From NCBI GenBank assembly GCA_905233415.1, contig CAJOEX010000017.1, forward strand, positions 1 through 40,200: 40,200 bases of DNA, in the 5' to 3' direction. This DNA comes from Paludibacteraceae bacterium. Its GTDB lineage: Bacteria; Bacteroidota; Bacteroidia; Bacteroidales; Paludibacteraceae. The notes beneath the pieces are model-generated. The model did not search any database. It saw nothing but the letters and a program-made list of their open reading frames with translations, and was not told the origin of the DNA. Shown here in pieces: positions 398-10,028 of this stretch; the first letter of the stretch is position 1; the number at the start of each line of letters is the position of its first letter. A program made the position numbers and the translations under genes.

Positions 398-429
398 CAA
401 AGGTACTAATTTTTTTGAGATAATGCAAA
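398..429 (-). promoter_or_regulatory. Bacteroidetes-type promoter of the Fic-like remnant
   Basis: Reading the minus strand, the -33 element TTTG (426-429) is separated by 20 nt from the -7 element TACCTTTG (398-405). This matches the Bacteroidetes sigma-ABfr consensus TTTG and TAnnTTTG. Transcription would start near 391. Confidence 0.65.
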
Positions 430-506: not shown

Positions 507-780
507 AGCTTGTTCCCTTTTATGCATCAAAGGGAACAACCTTATACGCATACAACCTATAGTGTATTCCTCTTAATAGGGCACAGCTTGTTCCCTTCTT
601 CGCATCAAAGGGAACAACCCTCATCCCACCATATACTATGCACCATACACATATTTTACACACTCTTCTCCGTGCTCCAGCTTGTTCCCTTTTATACACC
701 AAAGGGAACAAGTCAGTACAACTTATTCCTTCTTACGTATGCCTCAGCTTGTTCCCTTTTTTACCTCAAAAGGGAACAAC
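507..780 (-). repeat. Array of four hairpin-forming palindromic repeats
   Basis: This fills the gene-free stretch from 388 to 788. Four imperfect copies of one palindrome occur, with arms TTGTTCCCTTT and AAAGGGAACAA around a 7-10 nt loop. The arms are at 510-520/529-539, 588-597/608-617, 682-692/701-711 and 749-760/768-779. On the minus strand each copy reads RTTGTTCCCTTTGRTG, then a few variable bases, then AAAGGGAACAAGC, so the loop gives all copies the same orientation. Copies 1 and 3 share more flank (AAGCTGGAGCAC). Centre spacing is irregular (about 78, 94 and 68 bp), and the intervening sequences differ in length, unlike CRISPR. A fifth copy sits upstream of the adjacent gene (1263-1292). 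No transposase lies nearby. The function is unknown. Confidence 0.85.
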
Positions 781-788
781 CTTACACG

Positions 789-1247
789 TTACTTTCCCAA
801 TAATTCGTTATATAGATTCAAACCTTTGGCTGTCAATTTATATGTTTGCTCAGGCTTGTTGGGAGAACCCGGATAAGACATTGTCACGTAACCCTGTGCA
901 ACAGCCGGCTTGAAATAATTGTAAATAAAGATTCTCCGGCTCTTTTGCTTCAAACCTAATTCTTCTACTATCTGGCGGCGAGGCAACGAAGACTTGCCTA
1001 TAACCTGAACCATCTTGCGTACACGCAAATCAACATCCGTTCTGAGAAAAGGACGATTACCACTTTCTCTGTCATTTACTAGTCCTGCTGCAGTAAGGTC
1101 TATGCACACGTGACACGATTTCAATCCTTCCTGCACATCCGGACTGTCACTACTTAATACTACTTGATGCCCGACCTTTTGCAAAGCAGACATAATCTCC
1201 GGAACGAATTTCTTGTTCGCGCGATTCTCTCGAATTAATATCTTCAC
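789..1247 (-). CDS. Small winged-helix DNA-binding protein, function unknown
   Basis: This 152-residue protein starts at GTG (1245-1247); an in-frame TAG lies just upstream and the next Met is residue 19. Residues ~1-65 form a short alpha/beta-looking N-terminal part that I do not recognise. Residues ~75-150 look like a winged helix: a helix region around LPRRQIVEELGL, a long recognition-helix region, and a C-terminal TYKLTAKGLNLYNELL like the end of MarR/Fic-type wHTH modules. The gene has its own promoter (1306-1337) and a ~60-nt leader containing one copy of the palindrome, with four more copies starting 10 nt beyond the stop codon. This suggests that the protein or its mRNA interacts with the palindromes, possibly by autoregulation; that is inference. 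No enzymatic motif is visible. Confidence 0.7.
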   Translation of the reverse strand: MKILIRENRANKKFVPEIMSALQKVGHQVVLSSDSPDVQEGLKSCHVCIDLTAAGLVNDRESGNRPFLRTDVDLRVRKMVQVIGKSSLPRRQIVEELGLKQKSRRIFIYNYFKPAVAQGYVTMSYPGSPNKPEQTYKLTAKGLNLYNELLGK

Positions 1248-1262
1248 GGCTTGCTATATGGC

Positions 1263-1292
1263 TTGTTCCTTTTCCAACATCAAAGGGAACAA
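1263..1292 (-). promoter_or_regulatory. Fifth palindrome copy in the leader of the winged-helix gene
   Basis: On the minus strand, arms TTGTTCCCTTT (1282-1292) and AAAAGGAACAA (1263-1273) flank a short GATGTTGG loop. The right arm has one G fewer than the array copies. It lies between the predicted transcription start (~1300) and the GTG start at 1247, where it could act as an operator or an mRNA hairpin. Confidence 0.7.
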
Positions 1293-1305: not shown

Positions 1306-1337
1306 CAAAGGTACAACATTTTTCTCTTATATACAAA
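1306..1337 (-). promoter_or_regulatory. Bacteroidetes-type promoter of the winged-helix gene
   Basis: Reading the minus strand, TTTG (1334-1337), a 20-nt spacer and TACCTTTG (1306-1313) match the consensus. The predicted start near 1300 gives a ~50-nt leader that contains the palindrome. Confidence 0.7.
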
Positions 1338-1404
1338 AAAATCTGCATTTTCGTGCAGATTTATATAGAAACGCCATGTAGCGAGCGTCAATAAACGCCT
1401 TTTG

Positions 1405-3361: not shown

Positions 3362-3491
3362 GATAGCACGACGGATGTAGTATTCTGCATTCGTCAGTTG
3401 TCCGTTTATGCAATAGAAAATGTGTGTGTGTTGTCCGTTTTTCCAACGTGTTTTGTGCTTATTCTGTCCGTTTTTCCAAAAAAAGACGCTG

Positions 3492-3523
3492 CAAAAGTAC
3501 TGCTTTTTATTGATATACGCAAG
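3492..3523 (-). promoter_or_regulatory. Candidate promoter upstream of small ORF and DUF4476 gene
   Basis: On the minus strand TACTTTTG (3492-3499) is a good -7 element. The -33 position holds CTTG (3520-3523) at 20-nt spacing, one base off the TTTG consensus. Confidence 0.45.
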
Positions 3524-3612
3524 AAAATAGCAAGATTTTGGACAAAATAATGCATTCATAACATTAAAAAAGAACAACGGCGCACGATAGTGATGCACCG
3601 TTGGTTGTTTTG

Positions 3613-3686
3613 TCGGGATGACAAGATTTGAACTTGCGACCTCCGGTCCCCCAGACCGTTGCGCTACCGGACTGCGCCACATCCCG
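3613..3686 (-). tRNA. tRNA-Pro (GGG)
   Basis: The 74-nt cloverleaf has an acceptor CGGGATG pairing with CATCCCG, a D-arm, a T-arm with a TTCAAAT loop, and an anticodon loop CTGGGGG giving anticodon GGG. The first anticodon-stem pair is A-G, a mismatch; the other four pair. No CCA is encoded. It has its own promoter at 3705-3736. Confidence 0.9.
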
Positions 3687-3704
3687 TCGTTTTTTAAAAG
3701 CGTG

Positions 3705-3736
3705 CAAAGGTACTGCTTTTTTCTGAACCCTGCAAA
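3705..3736 (-). promoter_or_regulatory. Promoter of tRNA-Pro
   Basis: Reading the minus strand, TTTG (3733-3736), a 20-nt spacer and TACCTTTG (3705-3712) match the consensus, 18 nt before the tRNA 5' end. Confidence 0.7.
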
Positions 3737-3752
3737 TTTTTTTGCAAAAATA

Positions 3753-6503
3753 TTACTTTTTCCTTGTTTGTGCCGGTTTATTGGTCTTTTTTTGAGCCTT
3801 TTGCAGGAATTGCTCATAATCTTCAACCGAGAACGTAGCGGGAATAAGCTGGTAATTCTCCTCTGTGATGCACAGCGGCTTTACCTGCAATTCCTTAAAG
3901 AGCGATTGCAATTCCGCATTCTTCGCAGTCAAGCCAAGATACCAATCCGTTTCGCCAAGATTCTCATAACCGGAAATTCGCAATGCGCAGCCGTTCTCCC
4001 ATACAGGCATCTTCTGCAAGTCGAAATCCCGAATCAAGAACTGCGAGAAATTGAACAATGCCACCTCATACAGCAGTTTGTTCAACTTGGACTCGTCCGC
4101 TTCCGGCAAGCATAGCAATATCAAACTCGTTGTATTCGTCTCCGGAGAGAACTGCTTCTCACTTGTATCTTCGGACGGTTCTTCGCTCTGCTGACGCAGT
4201 TCGCTCAAATCGGATTTCATAGCACCTTTCTGACTTTCCATACCCTGCCCCATCATCGCCAGCATGTCTTTCGCCATAGCTGACAATTCGCTTTCCGGAT
4301 AACGGTTGACCATTTCGCGCAGCGCATCAATAAAGGCATTCTGTCCGTCCGTACGGGCAATCGCCACGGCGTTCAGGAAGAGGAAACGCGGCATCAACGG
4401 CGACAAGGGATAATGCTCATCGGCATAACGTTTATTGGCTTTGACGGTCGCAAACTCACTCTTGCGATACGCGTTATAGGTCGCTTCATAAACCGAATCC
4501 TGTTCCTGCGCCATACGTTGGAGCTTCTCGAAATAATCAGGCTGGGAAACAATGCGGGCTTGGTCAGCATCAGGCCAACGGCGCATAATCTCCTGCTTAT
4601 AACGTTCCGCAGCAAGCTTGTCATCGTTTTTGAGCGCTTGGAGATACTTCATGTAATAAAGGTCAAGGAGTCGCGGTTCCTGCGGGAAACGGCGTTCAAA
4701 TTCAGCAAAGGTTTCGTCTGCAAGTTGTTGGTCCTCCACCTTGTCCTGATAAATATATATAAGGTCGTAAAGTGCGTCTGCAATGAGGCTGTCGGAAAGG
4801 GCAAGGTCTTCCGGCGTTTTAGGAATCTGCTGCAGATAATACTCGGGCTTGTGAATGTCGGTTTCCTCCACCACTTGGGTTGAATCGGCGGGAGTATCCG
4901 AACTTTCCAACGATTCGGAAGAGTCGGAAGAATCTGTTATGTTTTCGCTGCTGAAAGAAGCCGAAACCGCCTTGCTGCGACGGCGCCAGTTGTCTTCAAG
5001 CGCACGGTTGCCCCATTGTTTGGTAAACGCCTGTTTTCCGGAACGAATGAGCTGCGTATTGTAGAAATACCAGTCTGCCGCAGCACCGCCTCCACCGCCA
5101 AGCATATTCCGTGTATCCACGCTTTGGAGACCTTCATTTTCCGCTTCACGCTGTGCGAGCTGCTCCTTTTCAGCGGCTTCTTTTTCAGCTTGGATAAGGT
5201 CTTCGATTATCTTATCAACCACTTGTCTTTGTTCCTCGGGCGTCATTTTGGAGAGCCGCTGGAGCGAATCCTGCAACTGCACGACAGACGAAGCGGCAAT
5301 CAGTTCGTCCAAGACCGCAGAACGTTTCTGCAGACGGTCGTAGTCTTCGCTCTCGGAAGAAATGATGGTAACCGCCTCCTGGTAACAAGGTTGTGCCGGT
5401 TCGTATTCACGACGGTCATAGTAGAGGTCCCCCGCTTTGATAAGAACAGCCGCTTTGTCCGGTCCGGCTTTGGTGCTCTTTTCAATGGCAAGCGCATAGT
5501 TCTCCAAGGCTTTGGCAGTATCACCTGCCGCCAAGTAAATATTGCCGATAGCACCATATATACAATCCAACTGGTCCTTATGCTTCGATAGTTTTGCCAT
5601 CTTTTCCAACGTTTTGACGGCTGACTTTCCCTGCAAGACGGCGAGATTTATCCGAGCATTGAAATCCATCGCCGGAACAGGCGCCAAATGGATACACTTC
5701 TTGTATGCATCGGCAGCCTCTTTATTTTTGCCTTCTGCCTGGTAGAGTTGCGCCAAAACATAGTAGAATCGCGGACGATGGACATTGCGCTTCTCGTCCG
5801 GCAAAGCCAGTTTGACGAATGGAATCGCCTCGTGATATTGTTTTCCTTTGAGAAGCACATCCGCTTTAGCGGAAGAATACTGTGATGCATTTTTGCGGCT
5901 GAGCGCGTCAATATTCGCCTTGTTGAGCATATCTTCCGCCTCATACTGCCAGCCCATTTCGGCATATGCACGCGCCATCCACAGTTGGCATCGTGCCACT
6001 ATTTCCGGGTCGTTCTCATAGTGCTTGATGACATAGCTGAACGTTCCTATACTGCCGAGGAAATCGCCTTTGCTGAACTCCGCTTCGCCCAAACGAATCC
6101 AGACTTTGCCCATCTGGTTGTTGAACTCTTCCAGTTGCAGCCATAGTTTGTATTTCGGGTCGTTCCGTTTCTTCGGGTCCGGTTTGGGTTTTGCTTTGAT
6201 GGAGTGCAGTTTGATGCATTTGCGGCATTTCTCAATCGTCTTGTCCATCTGTGAGGTTGCCGCTTCCGCGGCTTTATGGTCGCTGACAGGATAAAGCGGG
6301 ATAATGGTTGAAAAATCATCCTCGTGGGCTTTGATGGTCGCACGCTGTCCTTCCTCAAATGCGATGTTGCCGTTGAAGAAGATGTTGTATTTTACCTTTG
6401 TCTGGTGGAATGAGCGGTTGGCAGCCGTGTTCTTCTGGGTAGAACAGCCGCCTGCGACAATCGCCAAGGCGATGAAAAATATGAATATTTTTCTATTTGT
6501 CAT
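3753..6503 (-). CDS. porW: PorW/SprE-type type IX secretion TPR lipoprotein
   Basis: This 916-residue protein starts with a lipoprotein signal (hydrophobic segment, then AIVAGGCSTQ, Cys20). The segment KVKYNIFFNGNIAFEEG follows, characteristic of the PorW/SprE family (compare the family's YNxYFNGNxAYxEG). Residues ~130-420 hold several TPR-like helical repeats. A Ser/Asp/Glu-rich linker lies near 510-550, and further TPR-like helices run to a Lys-rich end. PorW (Porphyromonas) and SprE (Flavobacterium) are periplasmic outer-membrane lipoproteins needed for type IX secretion and gliding. Its presence fits the secreted proteins with sorting tails in this window. The gene starts 3 nt after tsaB and is probably co-transcribed with it. 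Confidence 0.85.
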   Translation of the reverse strand: MTNRKIFIFFIALAIVAGGCSTQKNTAANRSFHQTKVKYNIFFNGNIAFEEGQRATIKAHEDDFSTIIPLYPVSDHKAAEAATSQMDKTIEKCRKCIKLHSIKAKPKPDPKKRNDPKYKLWLQLEEFNNQMGKVWIRLGEAEFSKGDFLGSIGTFSYVIKHYENDPEIVARCQLWMARAYAEMGWQYEAEDMLNKANIDALSRKNASQYSSAKADVLLKGKQYHEAIPFVKLALPDEKRNVHRPRFYYVLAQLYQAEGKNKEAADAYKKCIHLAPVPAMDFNARINLAVLQGKSAVKTLEKMAKLSKHKDQLDCIYGAIGNIYLAAGDTAKALENYALAIEKSTKAGPDKAAVLIKAGDLYYDRREYEPAQPCYQEAVTIISSESEDYDRLQKRSAVLDELIAASSVVQLQDSLQRLSKMTPEEQRQVVDKIIEDLIQAEKEAAEKEQLAQREAENEGLQSVDTRNMLGGGGGAAADWYFYNTQLIRSGKQAFTKQWGNRALEDNWRRRSKAVSASFSSENITDSSDSSESLESSDTPADSTQVVEETDIHKPEYYLQQIPKTPEDLALSDSLIADALYDLIYIYQDKVEDQQLADETFAEFERRFPQEPRLLDLYYMKYLQALKNDDKLAAERYKQEIMRRWPDADQARIVSQPDYFEKLQRMAQEQDSVYEATYNAYRKSEFATVKANKRYADEHYPLSPLMPRFLFLNAVAIARTDGQNAFIDALREMVNRYPESELSAMAKDMLAMMGQGMESQKGAMKSDLSELRQQSEEPSEDTSEKQFSPETNTTSLILLCLPEADESKLNKLLYEVALFNFSQFLIRDFDLQKMPVWENGCALRISGYENLGETDWYLGLTAKNAELQSLFKELQVKPLCITEENYQLIPATFSVEDYEQFLQKAQKKTNKPAQTRKK

Positions 6504-7259: not shown

Positions 7260-7333
7260 TCAAAATGCAAGTTTGTCTCTTTTTTCTAACATTCTGTCAC
7301 GAGACGTAACTCTTGTTTCACCGGACGCTTCCC

Positions 7334-7366
7334 GAAGGGTCACAGAAGGGTCACAGAAGGGTCACC
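7334..7366 (-). repeat. Three 11-bp tandem repeats over the amylase stop codon
   Basis: Plus strand GAAGGGTCACA occurs at 7334-7344, 7345-7355 and, with a final C, at 7356-7366. The array begins at the TGA stop of the amylase gene (7362-7364), and each unit on the minus strand carries a TGA. It is probably a slippage product. Confidence 0.8.
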
Positions 7367-10028
7367 GGAGCATTACCTTTTTGCTGCCGACGAGGTAGAG
7401 GCCGGAAGGCAGATTGTCAATGCGGATGATTTCGTCCGAAAGCATCACCGTACGAAGCAACTGCCCCGTTGCCGACCAGACATTCAACGTCTGCCCCAAC
7501 ATCTGCTGCGGAACAACCAACATAATAGCACCTTGGCAAGCAAATGCACGCAACCCGTCAGAAGCCGCAGCATCCGTCACAGACATTATTTCCTCGCAAA
7601 TCTCAGTAACAAGCGAAGTAGGTTGAATGGCGTTCTTGTCGTTTCCGGCATAGAGGTAATGGTTTTGGAACTTGAGGTCCTTGGTCTGATTGCCGCTATC
7701 GTCGTTCCAGATAATCTGCCATGAGTCATCTATGGCTTTGGCCTCTTCAGGAACCGTAAACTTATAGTTGCCATTGCCCAAAGCCGTTGCCTTCATACCG
7801 GGCCATTTGCCACAAACTTCTACAACTTTGCCGGTGGATGTGTGCCATATATAACAGTGGATGGCGTTGCCGAAATCGGAAGATTTGGCAAAGAAAACGG
7901 CGCGTTCGTCTTTATCGGTCAGGCAGGGTTCCATCACTTCACCTTCACCGCCGCCCGGATGTTCGGGTTCGTCGGTCAGTTCCATTTGCGTGCCGTCCCA
8001 CGTCGGTTCGGGAATGTTCTTGGGGGTAGAAGTATAGATATACTTGCCATCCTCGCCTATCTTGCCGGGAGCAGACGTCTTGGTTGTTGAAAGCACATAG
8101 ACACGAAGATTACCCTTGCCGGAGCAGGAAACGGTAAGTTTGCCATTGGTAACGGTTTTGACATCGCCTGTGACGCAATCGGTGTATGAACCGTTGAGAA
8201 TGCCGGTAAAAGTTGCTCCGCCGGAAATGCAGACAAGCGCATAACTGTCCGTTTCGGCATCGGTATAACGGCGTTTGAAGGCAAAAGAACCAGAGCAACC
8301 GTCAACGGAATACTGTCCTTTTCGGAGTGCGGGAACAGCCATGCGAATCCGGCTCAGACGGCGAATATGCTGTGCCAAAGGATGCGAGAGAGTGGCAGCA
8401 AGGTTGCCTGTTGCGGAGTTGTATTCGGCAAAGTCTGTAGTTTCGACAGTTCCTTTGATGTATCCGCCAAAATACGCACGTCCGGAATTCTGCAAGGCGA
8501 TATTCGTGCCTTCGTCAATGCGTTTGCCTTTCTGAAACTCGACTTCGGAACCATAGAAAACACAAGGAATACCGCGATGGGTATACATCAGCGAAAGGTT
8601 TTCCGCCCATGTGTCCTGCGGTTTGGAGAAGCGGTTGAACTGGACTTCGTCAGGCGCATAGTCGTGGGAATCGACATAAACGACATTCCAAGTGGCATCG
8701 TTGTAGTACTTGTCATTGGATGGTTTTGCGATATTCCATGCACTGGAAGCGCTGGCAAAGTTCCAATGTTCGGTGAAGTCAATGACATGGAGCCCGGAAG
8801 CATTGGAATAATCGGGCGTGTGGTAGTCGTTGCCGTTGAGAAGCGCATTATTGGAAGTCGGCTGTGTAGAAAGTCCGCCTTTGTCGTCCTGCGCCTGCTG
8901 CCAGCATGATTTCCAGTTGGTGTGCGAAGTGCAAGCAGAAGCTTCGTATTCCACAAGATTGTCCCATGAAGCCGCATCATCGTCCCAAGCATAGTCTCTT
9001 GATTCCGCCCATGTATAATAGAACGGAGACAGGTTTGACCAGCCACGATAGAGGATGTCACTATATCGCGCACATATTTCCGCAAACATATAGAACGGCG
9101 TTCCGCCACGTTTGTCCTTTGCCGCTTCGCCTGCTTCTATAAAGGCAGGAATAAAAGCCTTATTAAAAGTGAGACGGGGGATATGCCCACCGGTGTCAAT
9201 ACGAAAGCCGTCCACCCCCATGTTGATAAAGGATGTATAGCACTTGATAAGATAGTTATAAACGGCGGGATTCTCGGTGTTCAAGTCCACACAATCACCG
9301 GCAATCTGCGCAAACCAACGGTTGGGTTCGTCCCAGTTGAAGTCGCCGTAGTGATGCCAGTAGTTGTGGGAATCATAGTTTTTCTTCGTACCGTTCTCAT
9401 CGGATGAATTCTTCATCTTTGAGAGGCGTGCAGAGTACTGCCTGCCGCCGTCCAAAGAAAGATAATTGTCGGGCAGTTTGCCTCCGTCCTTCTGCGTAAA
9501 GGGAATCATCGATTCGTCCACAGAAGACTGGTCTGCCGACCAATCGCGATTGAAGAGCTTGCAGAGATTGGCTTCGCCAAAATTGCCGGTGTGATTGAGG
9601 ACGATGTCCAAAATAATCTTCATACCCCGTTTGTGGGCTTCGTCAATCACAGTCTGAAAACTCACGCCTTCGGACTCATGGCGATGGTCCACTTTGGAAA
9701 AATCAACCGCATGATAGCCGTGGTAATCGTACCCGGAAGCGTTTTCAACAATCGGCGTAATCCAAATGGCAGTAAAACCAAGTGCTTTGATATAGTCCAG
9801 TTTCTCAATCAGGCCTTTGAAATCGCCCCGCCAAGCAGGATCTCCGGCATTCTTGGACTGGTTGTCCCAACATTGGGTGTTGTTTGACGGGTCACCATCG
9901 TAGAAGCGCGTCGGCAGCAGAAAATAGATTTGCTCGTCACGGAAATCCGTCCGGGAGGGATAGAATGTAGCAGCCGGCAAGCCTGCCGTCATAAAGAGAC
10001 AGAAAGCCAACCAAAGCAGTTTTTTCAT
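7362..10028 (-). CDS. Secreted GH13 alpha-amylase with starch-binding module and T9SS tail
   Basis: This is an 888-residue protein with a signal peptide (MKKLLWLAFCLFMTAGLPAA). The GH13 domain spans ~25-570. Region I is DIVLNHTG (141-148), the nucleophile Asp278 is in GFRIDTGGH, the acid/base Glu317 is in FAEICAR, and the transition-state Asp456 is in VDSHD, so the catalytic triad is intact. An all-beta domain follows to ~650. Residues ~708-790 (AVFFAKSSDFGNAIHCYIW, then KWPGM) resemble a CBM26-type starch-binding module. The last ~70 residues end LPSGLYLVGSKKVMLR, a type IX type-A sorting domain. The enzyme should cleave alpha-1,4-glucans outside the cell or at its surface. It starts 12 nt after rfbC and is likely in the same transcript. 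Confidence 0.92.
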   Translation of the reverse strand: MKKLLWLAFCLFMTAGLPAATFYPSRTDFRDEQIYFLLPTRFYDGDPSNNTQCWDNQSKNAGDPAWRGDFKGLIEKLDYIKALGFTAIWITPIVENASGYDYHGYHAVDFSKVDHRHESEGVSFQTVIDEAHKRGMKIILDIVLNHTGNFGEANLCKLFNRDWSADQSSVDESMIPFTQKDGGKLPDNYLSLDGGRQYSARLSKMKNSSDENGTKKNYDSHNYWHHYGDFNWDEPNRWFAQIAGDCVDLNTENPAVYNYLIKCYTSFINMGVDGFRIDTGGHIPRLTFNKAFIPAFIEAGEAAKDKRGGTPFYMFAEICARYSDILYRGWSNLSPFYYTWAESRDYAWDDDAASWDNLVEYEASACTSHTNWKSCWQQAQDDKGGLSTQPTSNNALLNGNDYHTPDYSNASGLHVIDFTEHWNFASASSAWNIAKPSNDKYYNDATWNVVYVDSHDYAPDEVQFNRFSKPQDTWAENLSLMYTHRGIPCVFYGSEVEFQKGKRIDEGTNIALQNSGRAYFGGYIKGTVETTDFAEYNSATGNLAATLSHPLAQHIRRLSRIRMAVPALRKGQYSVDGCSGSFAFKRRYTDAETDSYALVCISGGATFTGILNGSYTDCVTGDVKTVTNGKLTVSCSGKGNLRVYVLSTTKTSAPGKIGEDGKYIYTSTPKNIPEPTWDGTQMELTDEPEHPGGGEGEVMEPCLTDKDERAVFFAKSSDFGNAIHCYIWHTSTGKVVEVCGKWPGMKATALGNGNYKFTVPEEAKAIDDSWQIIWNDDSGNQTKDLKFQNHYLYAGNDKNAIQPTSLVTEICEEIMSVTDAAASDGLRAFACQGAIMLVVPQQMLGQTLNVWSATGQLLRTVMLSDEIIRIDNLPSGLYLVGSKKVMLR

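Follow-up and report, generated by a model that had tools for sequence, protein, structure and literature searches.

Five copies of one palindrome surround a single small gene near one end of the 40,200-nucleotide stretch of Paludibacteraceae DNA analysed here (the window). Three readings had been offered from the letters of the window: an operator array of an autoregulated DNA-binding protein, an array of mRNA hairpins, and a palindromic element tied to a protein of its own.

The palindromes and the winged-helix gene

All five copies reported around the gene, which encodes a 152-residue winged-helix (WH) protein, were recovered, one in the leader and four past the stop codon (Table 1), and on the gene strand GC comes next after each of them. 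No further copies had been seen in the window, and this held: the five palindromes account, through their arms, for all 10 arm matches with zero or one mismatch, and when up to two mismatches were allowed 21 matches were found (14.6 expected), the other 11 all being single. Across the assembled genome (2.05 Mb, 95.6% complete, in 53 contigs), a search for the palindrome that allowed three mismatches at most and an 8-base loop gave four places, all at the window locus, the copy at 749-779 with its 9-base loop lying outside this pattern; with loops of 4-14 bases and no mismatches, the window locus was again the sole match in the window genome. The proposal that an asymmetric loop gives every copy the same orientation found weak support, as GC is the right flank in 34 of 39 copies at close homologues but the left flank is variable; the palindrome site is in essence a symmetric dyad.

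Table 1. Features of the palindrome-flanked locus, in window positions.
Feature	Position	Strand	Remarks
Next promoter, -7 box TACCTTTG, past the downstream palindromes	398..405	-	From sequence
Downstream palindrome 4	510..539	-	Begins 249 bases after stop codon
Downstream palindrome 3	588..617	-	Begins 171 bases after stop codon
Downstream palindrome 2	682..711	-	Begins 77 bases after stop codon
Downstream palindrome 1, 31 bp	749..779	-	Begins 9 bases after stop codon; 9-base loop
Chimeric WH protein gene, 152 residues	789..1247	-	GTG start; Pfam Fic-like_C (PF21247) match
WH domain, residues 74-150	798..1028	-	
Predicted recognition helix, residues 104-117, RRIFIYNYFKPAVA	897..938	-	AlphaFold2 model; the strongest half-site association is at column R105
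N-terminal domain, residues 1-50, predicted beta-alpha-beta-alpha-beta	1098..1247	-	AlphaFold2 model, mean pLDDT 84.5
Leader palindrome	1263..1292	-	Starts 21 bases from first base of -7 box; ends 15 bases before start codon
Promoter -7 box TACCTTTG, consensus TAnnTTTG	1306..1313	-	
Promoter -33 box TTTG	1334..1337	-	20 bases from -7 box
Terminator-like hairpin directly upstream of the promoter	1339..1362	-	End of previous unit

As intrinsic terminators the palindromes were rejected, with no T run after any of the five and none of them flagged as a terminator; one flagged terminator stem (705-729) overlaps a palindrome arm, but through a different pairing. A search for known RNA families returned six sub-threshold matches alone, to families implausible here. 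Elsewhere in the window, 12-bp tandem repeats (TTGAAGGACAyC) occupy 82-129, within a partial ORF at the contig start.

The protein matches the Pfam profile of Fic-like_C over residues 76-139 at 59.4 bits, the gathering cut-off being 27. Its structure was modelled by AlphaFold2 with 70 sequences, an earlier model with 13 sequences having been dropped for an unreliable WH (mean pLDDT 59.9). Comparison with the PDB, which covered mainly residues 64-152, identified the modelled WH as MarR-like, with residues 104-117 as the predicted recognition helix. For the N-terminal domain, which we infer to be a dimerization and spacing module, a designed P-loop fold (2lr0) was a weak sequence match (E 0.009). 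A total of 42 database proteins match the window protein, one of them being its own entry, and 41 of 41 relatives in named genomes are labelled Bacteroidales or Paludibacteraceae, several titles mentioning the rumen or other ruminant gut sites.

Co-occurrence of gene and palindrome

Among 178 congeneric genomes searched, 13 close homologues were found in 12 genomes: one is the window protein itself, and the remaining 12 show 70-76% identity, one of these ending at residue 125 at a contig end. The leader palindrome is present at all 13, and one to four copies lie past the stop codon at each of the 12 that have downstream sequence. The leader palindrome also precedes one more homologue, in G127, whose sequence stops with the contig at residue 40 and which is not counted among the 13; homologues without the repeats, named by the initial annotation as evidence against its reading, were not found in this close group. 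When genomes were counted from the complete table of matches, the palindrome was held by 12 of 12 gene-bearing genomes versus 24 of the 166 congeneric genomes without the full gene (P value=9e-10; Fisher test). The suggested co-occurrence in related genomes therefore holds for every genome with the gene, while the scattering in genomes without it, likewise named as contrary evidence, is seen in part, in those 24.

A family of winged-helix chimeras

In weaker homologues of the window protein the WH is the main common part and the N-terminal parts differ. The latter were recognized as cupin, D-aminoacyl-tRNA deacylase and GNAT acetyltransferase domains by Pfam and as TIGR04076 by NCBIfam, together with FMN-reductase-like pieces (weak, below the Pfam cut-off) and further Rossmann-like ones. 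Most of these chimera genes are flanked by palindromes as well, of a sequence other than the window's. A half-site was assigned at 66 of 85 WH loci, being set by hand at 12 loci and then at five (three of them repeats); an upstream copy is found at 62 of the 66, a downstream copy at 42, and both within 600 bp at 39. The 19 loci left without a half-site in these counts comprise 12 standalone WH genes plus L138, L155, L156, L165, L170, L175 and L189; some are cut by contig ends, and at several the automatic pass had proposed single palindromes that were put aside by hand.

At 44 of the 85 WH loci, including the window's, one exact 8-mer occurs in two or more inverted pairs no further than 450 bp from the gene. 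This was seen in none of the first-order resampled sequences (20 per locus, 85 loci), and the 12 standalone WH genes have at most one such pair each. Three of these standalone genes (L174, L176 and L182) each have one palindrome of another subfamily 417-503 bp upstream. Two chimeras, L169 and L170, are of reverse order, the WH coming first and a cysteine-rich domain forming the C-terminal part; palindromes with half-site ATGTACCAT accompany L169, and none was assigned to L170.

Half-site word and half-site spacing

Covariation between site and recognition helix, as expected of cognate operators, was found across the family, with exceptions. The SRR-x-FIY helix goes with half-site GGAACAA, SRHTFIN with GACACAA, SRAIFIN with GATACAA or GATACAG, SRKVFID with ATACAG, SRKS with TATACAA, SRCIFVY with AATACAA, SRRNFMD with GGAGCAA and SRRTFIDH with GGTACAA. 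Over 501 pairs of different N-terminal class (38 non-redundant of 65 loci), recognition-helix identity correlated with half-site identity (r=0.35; 0 of 5,000 permutations, null 0.000, s.d. 0.067, the 38 loci being taken as exchangeable), while identity in WH helices 1-2 and in the wing region gave r of −0.12 and −0.22 for the same pairs. R105 is the WH column most strongly associated with the half-site. The exceptions are L158 (SRRVFID with GATACAA), L128 (FTY with GATACAA), L143 (SRRTFID with GGAACAA) and the L144 group (FVY with AATACAA). The same half-site recurs behind different N-terminal domains: TTTATACAA is common to DTD, cupin and TIGR04076 chimeras, and GGAACAA to Rossmann-like A, B, E and cupin chimeras. 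In the related loci L063, L125 and L126 the half-site ends in CAT, not CAA, and these have a different wing in common (PDIPSKPDQ or PEIPSKPDQ), hinting that the wing may read the outer base.

The span between half-sites falls into classes of about 30, 40 or 52 bp and follows the N-terminal class (eta2=0.835; 0 of 5,000 permutations), a value that may be raised by the drawing of the Rossmann-like A, B, C and E classes by hand from N-terminal sequence; for span by half-site, eta2 was 0.456 (225 of 5,000 permutations). Spans are 30-31 bp in all 39 palindromes of the window group, 39-41 in 15 of 15 of Rossmann-like B and 41-43 in 7 of 7 of the FMN-reductase-like pair. They are 32-33 in 3 of 4 deacylase palindromes, 50-55 in 21 of 26 cupin palindromes, 47-54 in 51 of 62 TIGR04076 palindromes (the rest 29-46 and 61) and 39-42 in 13 of 19 Rossmann-like C palindromes (the rest 28-29). 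Helical periodicity of the spans is purely descriptive, with a broad resultant length of 0.64-0.66 at periods of 10.5-11.5.

The window genome itself holds a second chimera, a cupin-WH protein (L134, G000:C14), whose recognition residues SRRIFIYNYF are as in the window protein. Its palindromes have a GGAACAA half-site core like the window's, but spans of 53-54 as against 30-31. To the following broader reading we give roughly an even chance: in this one genus there would be a two-part DNA address code, in which a portable WH is fused to enzymes or sensor domains of unrelated folds and each chimera has its own operators. The WH helix would pick the half-site word and the dimer geometry of the fused domain the spacing (about three, four or five helical turns), so that chimeras with the same helix, as in the window genome, would be kept apart by spacing alone; the units would pass from species to species, with solo operators remaining where they had been.

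Position of the palindromes relative to promoters

In the sigma-ABfr consensus as quoted from PMC7366714, TAnnTTTG lies at -7 and TTTG near -33. Relative to such promoters the palindromes take two fixed positions, both counted from where the -7 box begins. In one the palindrome ends at about -27, abutting the -33 element; in the other it starts at about +21, and in Rossmann-like B and E the two may occur at a single gene. A palindrome in a canonical position was found at 41 of 66 loci, whereas random slides gave a mean of 3.3 and a maximum of 12, with 0 of 2,000 reaching as many. Unbiased inverted repeats occupy canonical positions at 43 of the 66 loci; the corresponding figure is 1 of 12 for the standalone WH genes and 13 of 227 for other TAnnTTTG boxes. 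By class, the position is canonical for 10 of 13 loci of the window group, for Rossmann-like B (4 of 5), C (4 of 4) and E (4 of 4), for TIGR04076 (14 of 23), flavodoxin-like (2 of 2) and deacylase (1 of 1) chimeras, and for the DUF-like reverse chimera (1 of 1), cupin (1 of 12) and GNAT (0 of 1). Such a fixed position is expected of an autoregulator with cognate operators, and the leader palindrome of the window is at +21.

In 23 of the 37 loci listed, the palindrome is upstream of the promoter and ends at about -27 (TIGR04076, 10; Rossmann-like B, 4; C, 4; E, 1; flavodoxin-like, 2; deacylase, 1; cupin, 1). As a palindrome there is not in the transcript from that promoter, DNA operators are favoured over hairpins. 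The downstream copies were also considered as operators of the next promoter, which was not supported, 2 of 63 being at a canonical offset.

We consider it probable that the palindromes are operators to which the predicted WH protein binds as a dimer, thereby controlling transcription of its own gene. The WH domain would read the half-site, and the N-terminal domain would dimerize and, like a ruler, set the spacing between half-sites. A dimer on the +21 site could block initiation or early elongation, which would amount to negative autoregulation, and the downstream copies may strengthen it by looping or as a roadblock.

That the palindromes instead form hairpins in the mRNA, in its leader and at its 3′ end, governing decay or translation and perhaps bound by the protein, is unlikely in our judgement. 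The copies of the window group all lie inside the likely transcript, and their arms pair almost perfectly, with 19 G-U against 5 A-C pairs on the sense strand, an excess expected of an RNA hairpin, although these counts come from related copies and are non-independent; for the window group an RNA role thus keeps some likelihood. In Rossmann-like B the wobble bias is opposite (9 A-C and 0 G-U). The location upstream of the promoter disfavours hairpins for the family, as do the spans, which step by about 10 bp from one N-terminal class to another. Among the readings first proposed, the operator array is hence preferred to the hairpins, and the linked palindromic element stands in part, in that the gene moves with its palindromes and solo copies occur.

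Mobile units and solo palindromes

In G060, G167 and G177 the unit is near-identical from the -7 box to a terminator-like end, with two or three downstream copies, and its surroundings are unrelated. From such comparisons, the gene and its palindromes appear to travel between species as a promoter-to-terminator unit. G060 further holds gene-less palindromes, two complete (L052) and one cut by a contig end (L053), which combine the left end of the leader copy with the right end of the last copy. Other solo palindromes are found in G001, where the copy is of the G182 type (L062 compared with L126), and in G177, which has one on C1. The solo palindromes likely reflect gene loss through recombination between palindromes, to which their hybrid ends point.

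The near-identical unit in three genomes with unrelated flanks, and the solo palindromes with hybrid ends in G060 plus the one in G001, would also suit a cassette, integron-like or solo-LTR-like, whose palindromes function chiefly in recombination or mobility, with the WH protein serving its movement. We regard this as quite improbable: the unit has no apparent recombinase, its borders are at the -7 box and the terminator region rather than at the palindromes, and the fixed promoter geometry would need another reason. Moreover, G177 has the 5′ part of the unrelated 505-residue gene that lies beside a solo copy on G060:C21 (97% DNA identity over 621 bases). No solo palindrome is present in the 330 bp shown upstream of it, as at a candidate empty site, but the upstream region is wholly unlike that of G060, the whole context switching near the 5′ end of the gene, and the comparison falls short of proving insertion; exchange at promoter borders may thus be general here.

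Several further arrangements were observed. By eye, palindromes of several subfamilies are lined up within a single intergenic stretch at L122 (5640-6000), L058 (4420-4560) and L200, as if solo operators were accumulating there. At L119, tandem single half-sites (GTAGGGAACAA repeated) come after a palindrome (3550-3960 and 2380-2620), and the block recurs after a neighbouring 368-residue gene that is polysaccharide-deacetylase-like by eye. At L132 (G129:C19), palindrome arrays at 3415-3721 and 7290-7681 are in opposite orientation, with about 3.6 kb between them.

Relation to known systems

MarR-family autorepressors dimerize via their own helices and bind short operators of fixed spacing, whereas the spans here are mostly 30-54 bp and track an unrelated N-terminal domain. 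In the trigger enzymes PutA, BirA and NadR, an enzyme and a DNA-binding domain form one autoregulating chain. The chimeras likewise have both in one chain, with autoregulation predicted; unlike in trigger enzymes, one WH is joined to unrelated domains of at least five types, with separate variation in half-site and in spacing. The Fic-like_C winged helix (PF21247) is known from Fic proteins such as 4rgl, yet the window protein is without a Fic domain: its WH lies behind a 50-residue piece of putative Rossmann-like fold, or behind various enzymes in the family, and the gene carries its own palindromes. The match to Csa3 (CARF-wHTH, 2wte) is limited to the WH, and no link to the sensing of cyclic oligoadenylate by CARF in CRISPR was seen here.

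REP elements are likewise short extragenic palindromes; those here differ in having one locus in a 2.05 Mb genome and in being apparently cognate to the adjacent protein. REPs have a GTAG or CGTC tag at one end, as described in PMC3733652, and this tag is absent from the window palindromes, whose ends read TTGTTCC/GGAACAAGC. That a REP-like dispersed repeat became lodged near the window gene by chance is barely credible, for although a copy is present in the 24 congeneric genomes without the full gene, the window genome has a single locus, all 13 close homologues are flanked, and half-site and span vary with the protein.

In kind, then, the system is quite likely an ordinary one, an autoregulator with its operators. 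What appears unusual is its design: word and spacing fall to different modules, the fused domains are several and unrelated, palindromes follow the stop codon, and the units are mobile. A literature search, over titles and the abstracts shown and with most subscription papers beyond its coverage, returned no description of such a chimera and palindrome system. Across the family, two protein modules are matched by separate changes in half-site and in spacing. This naturally occurring set of operators would allow the role of a dimerization domain as a ruler for DNA recognition to be tested directly; it also bears on how related regulators avoid cross-talk. For unannotated small proteins of uncultured Bacteroidales and Paludibacteraceae (cupin-, TIGR04076-, deacylase- and acetyltransferase-WH chimeras) a plausible function is provided.

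A second repeat in the window

Another repeat, GTCCTTCTGTTTYCCGTCAGTAAG, is present at 1400-1444 and 2377-2421 of the window, on either side of a Bro-N gene (1663-2349). A third copy (L277, G000:C5:153911) lies about 90 bp upstream of a gene whose product looks KilA-N-like by its motif, and a fourth is at C11:24833 (L280). This repeat and its neighbouring gene may represent a parallel pairing of a DNA-binding protein with a repeat.
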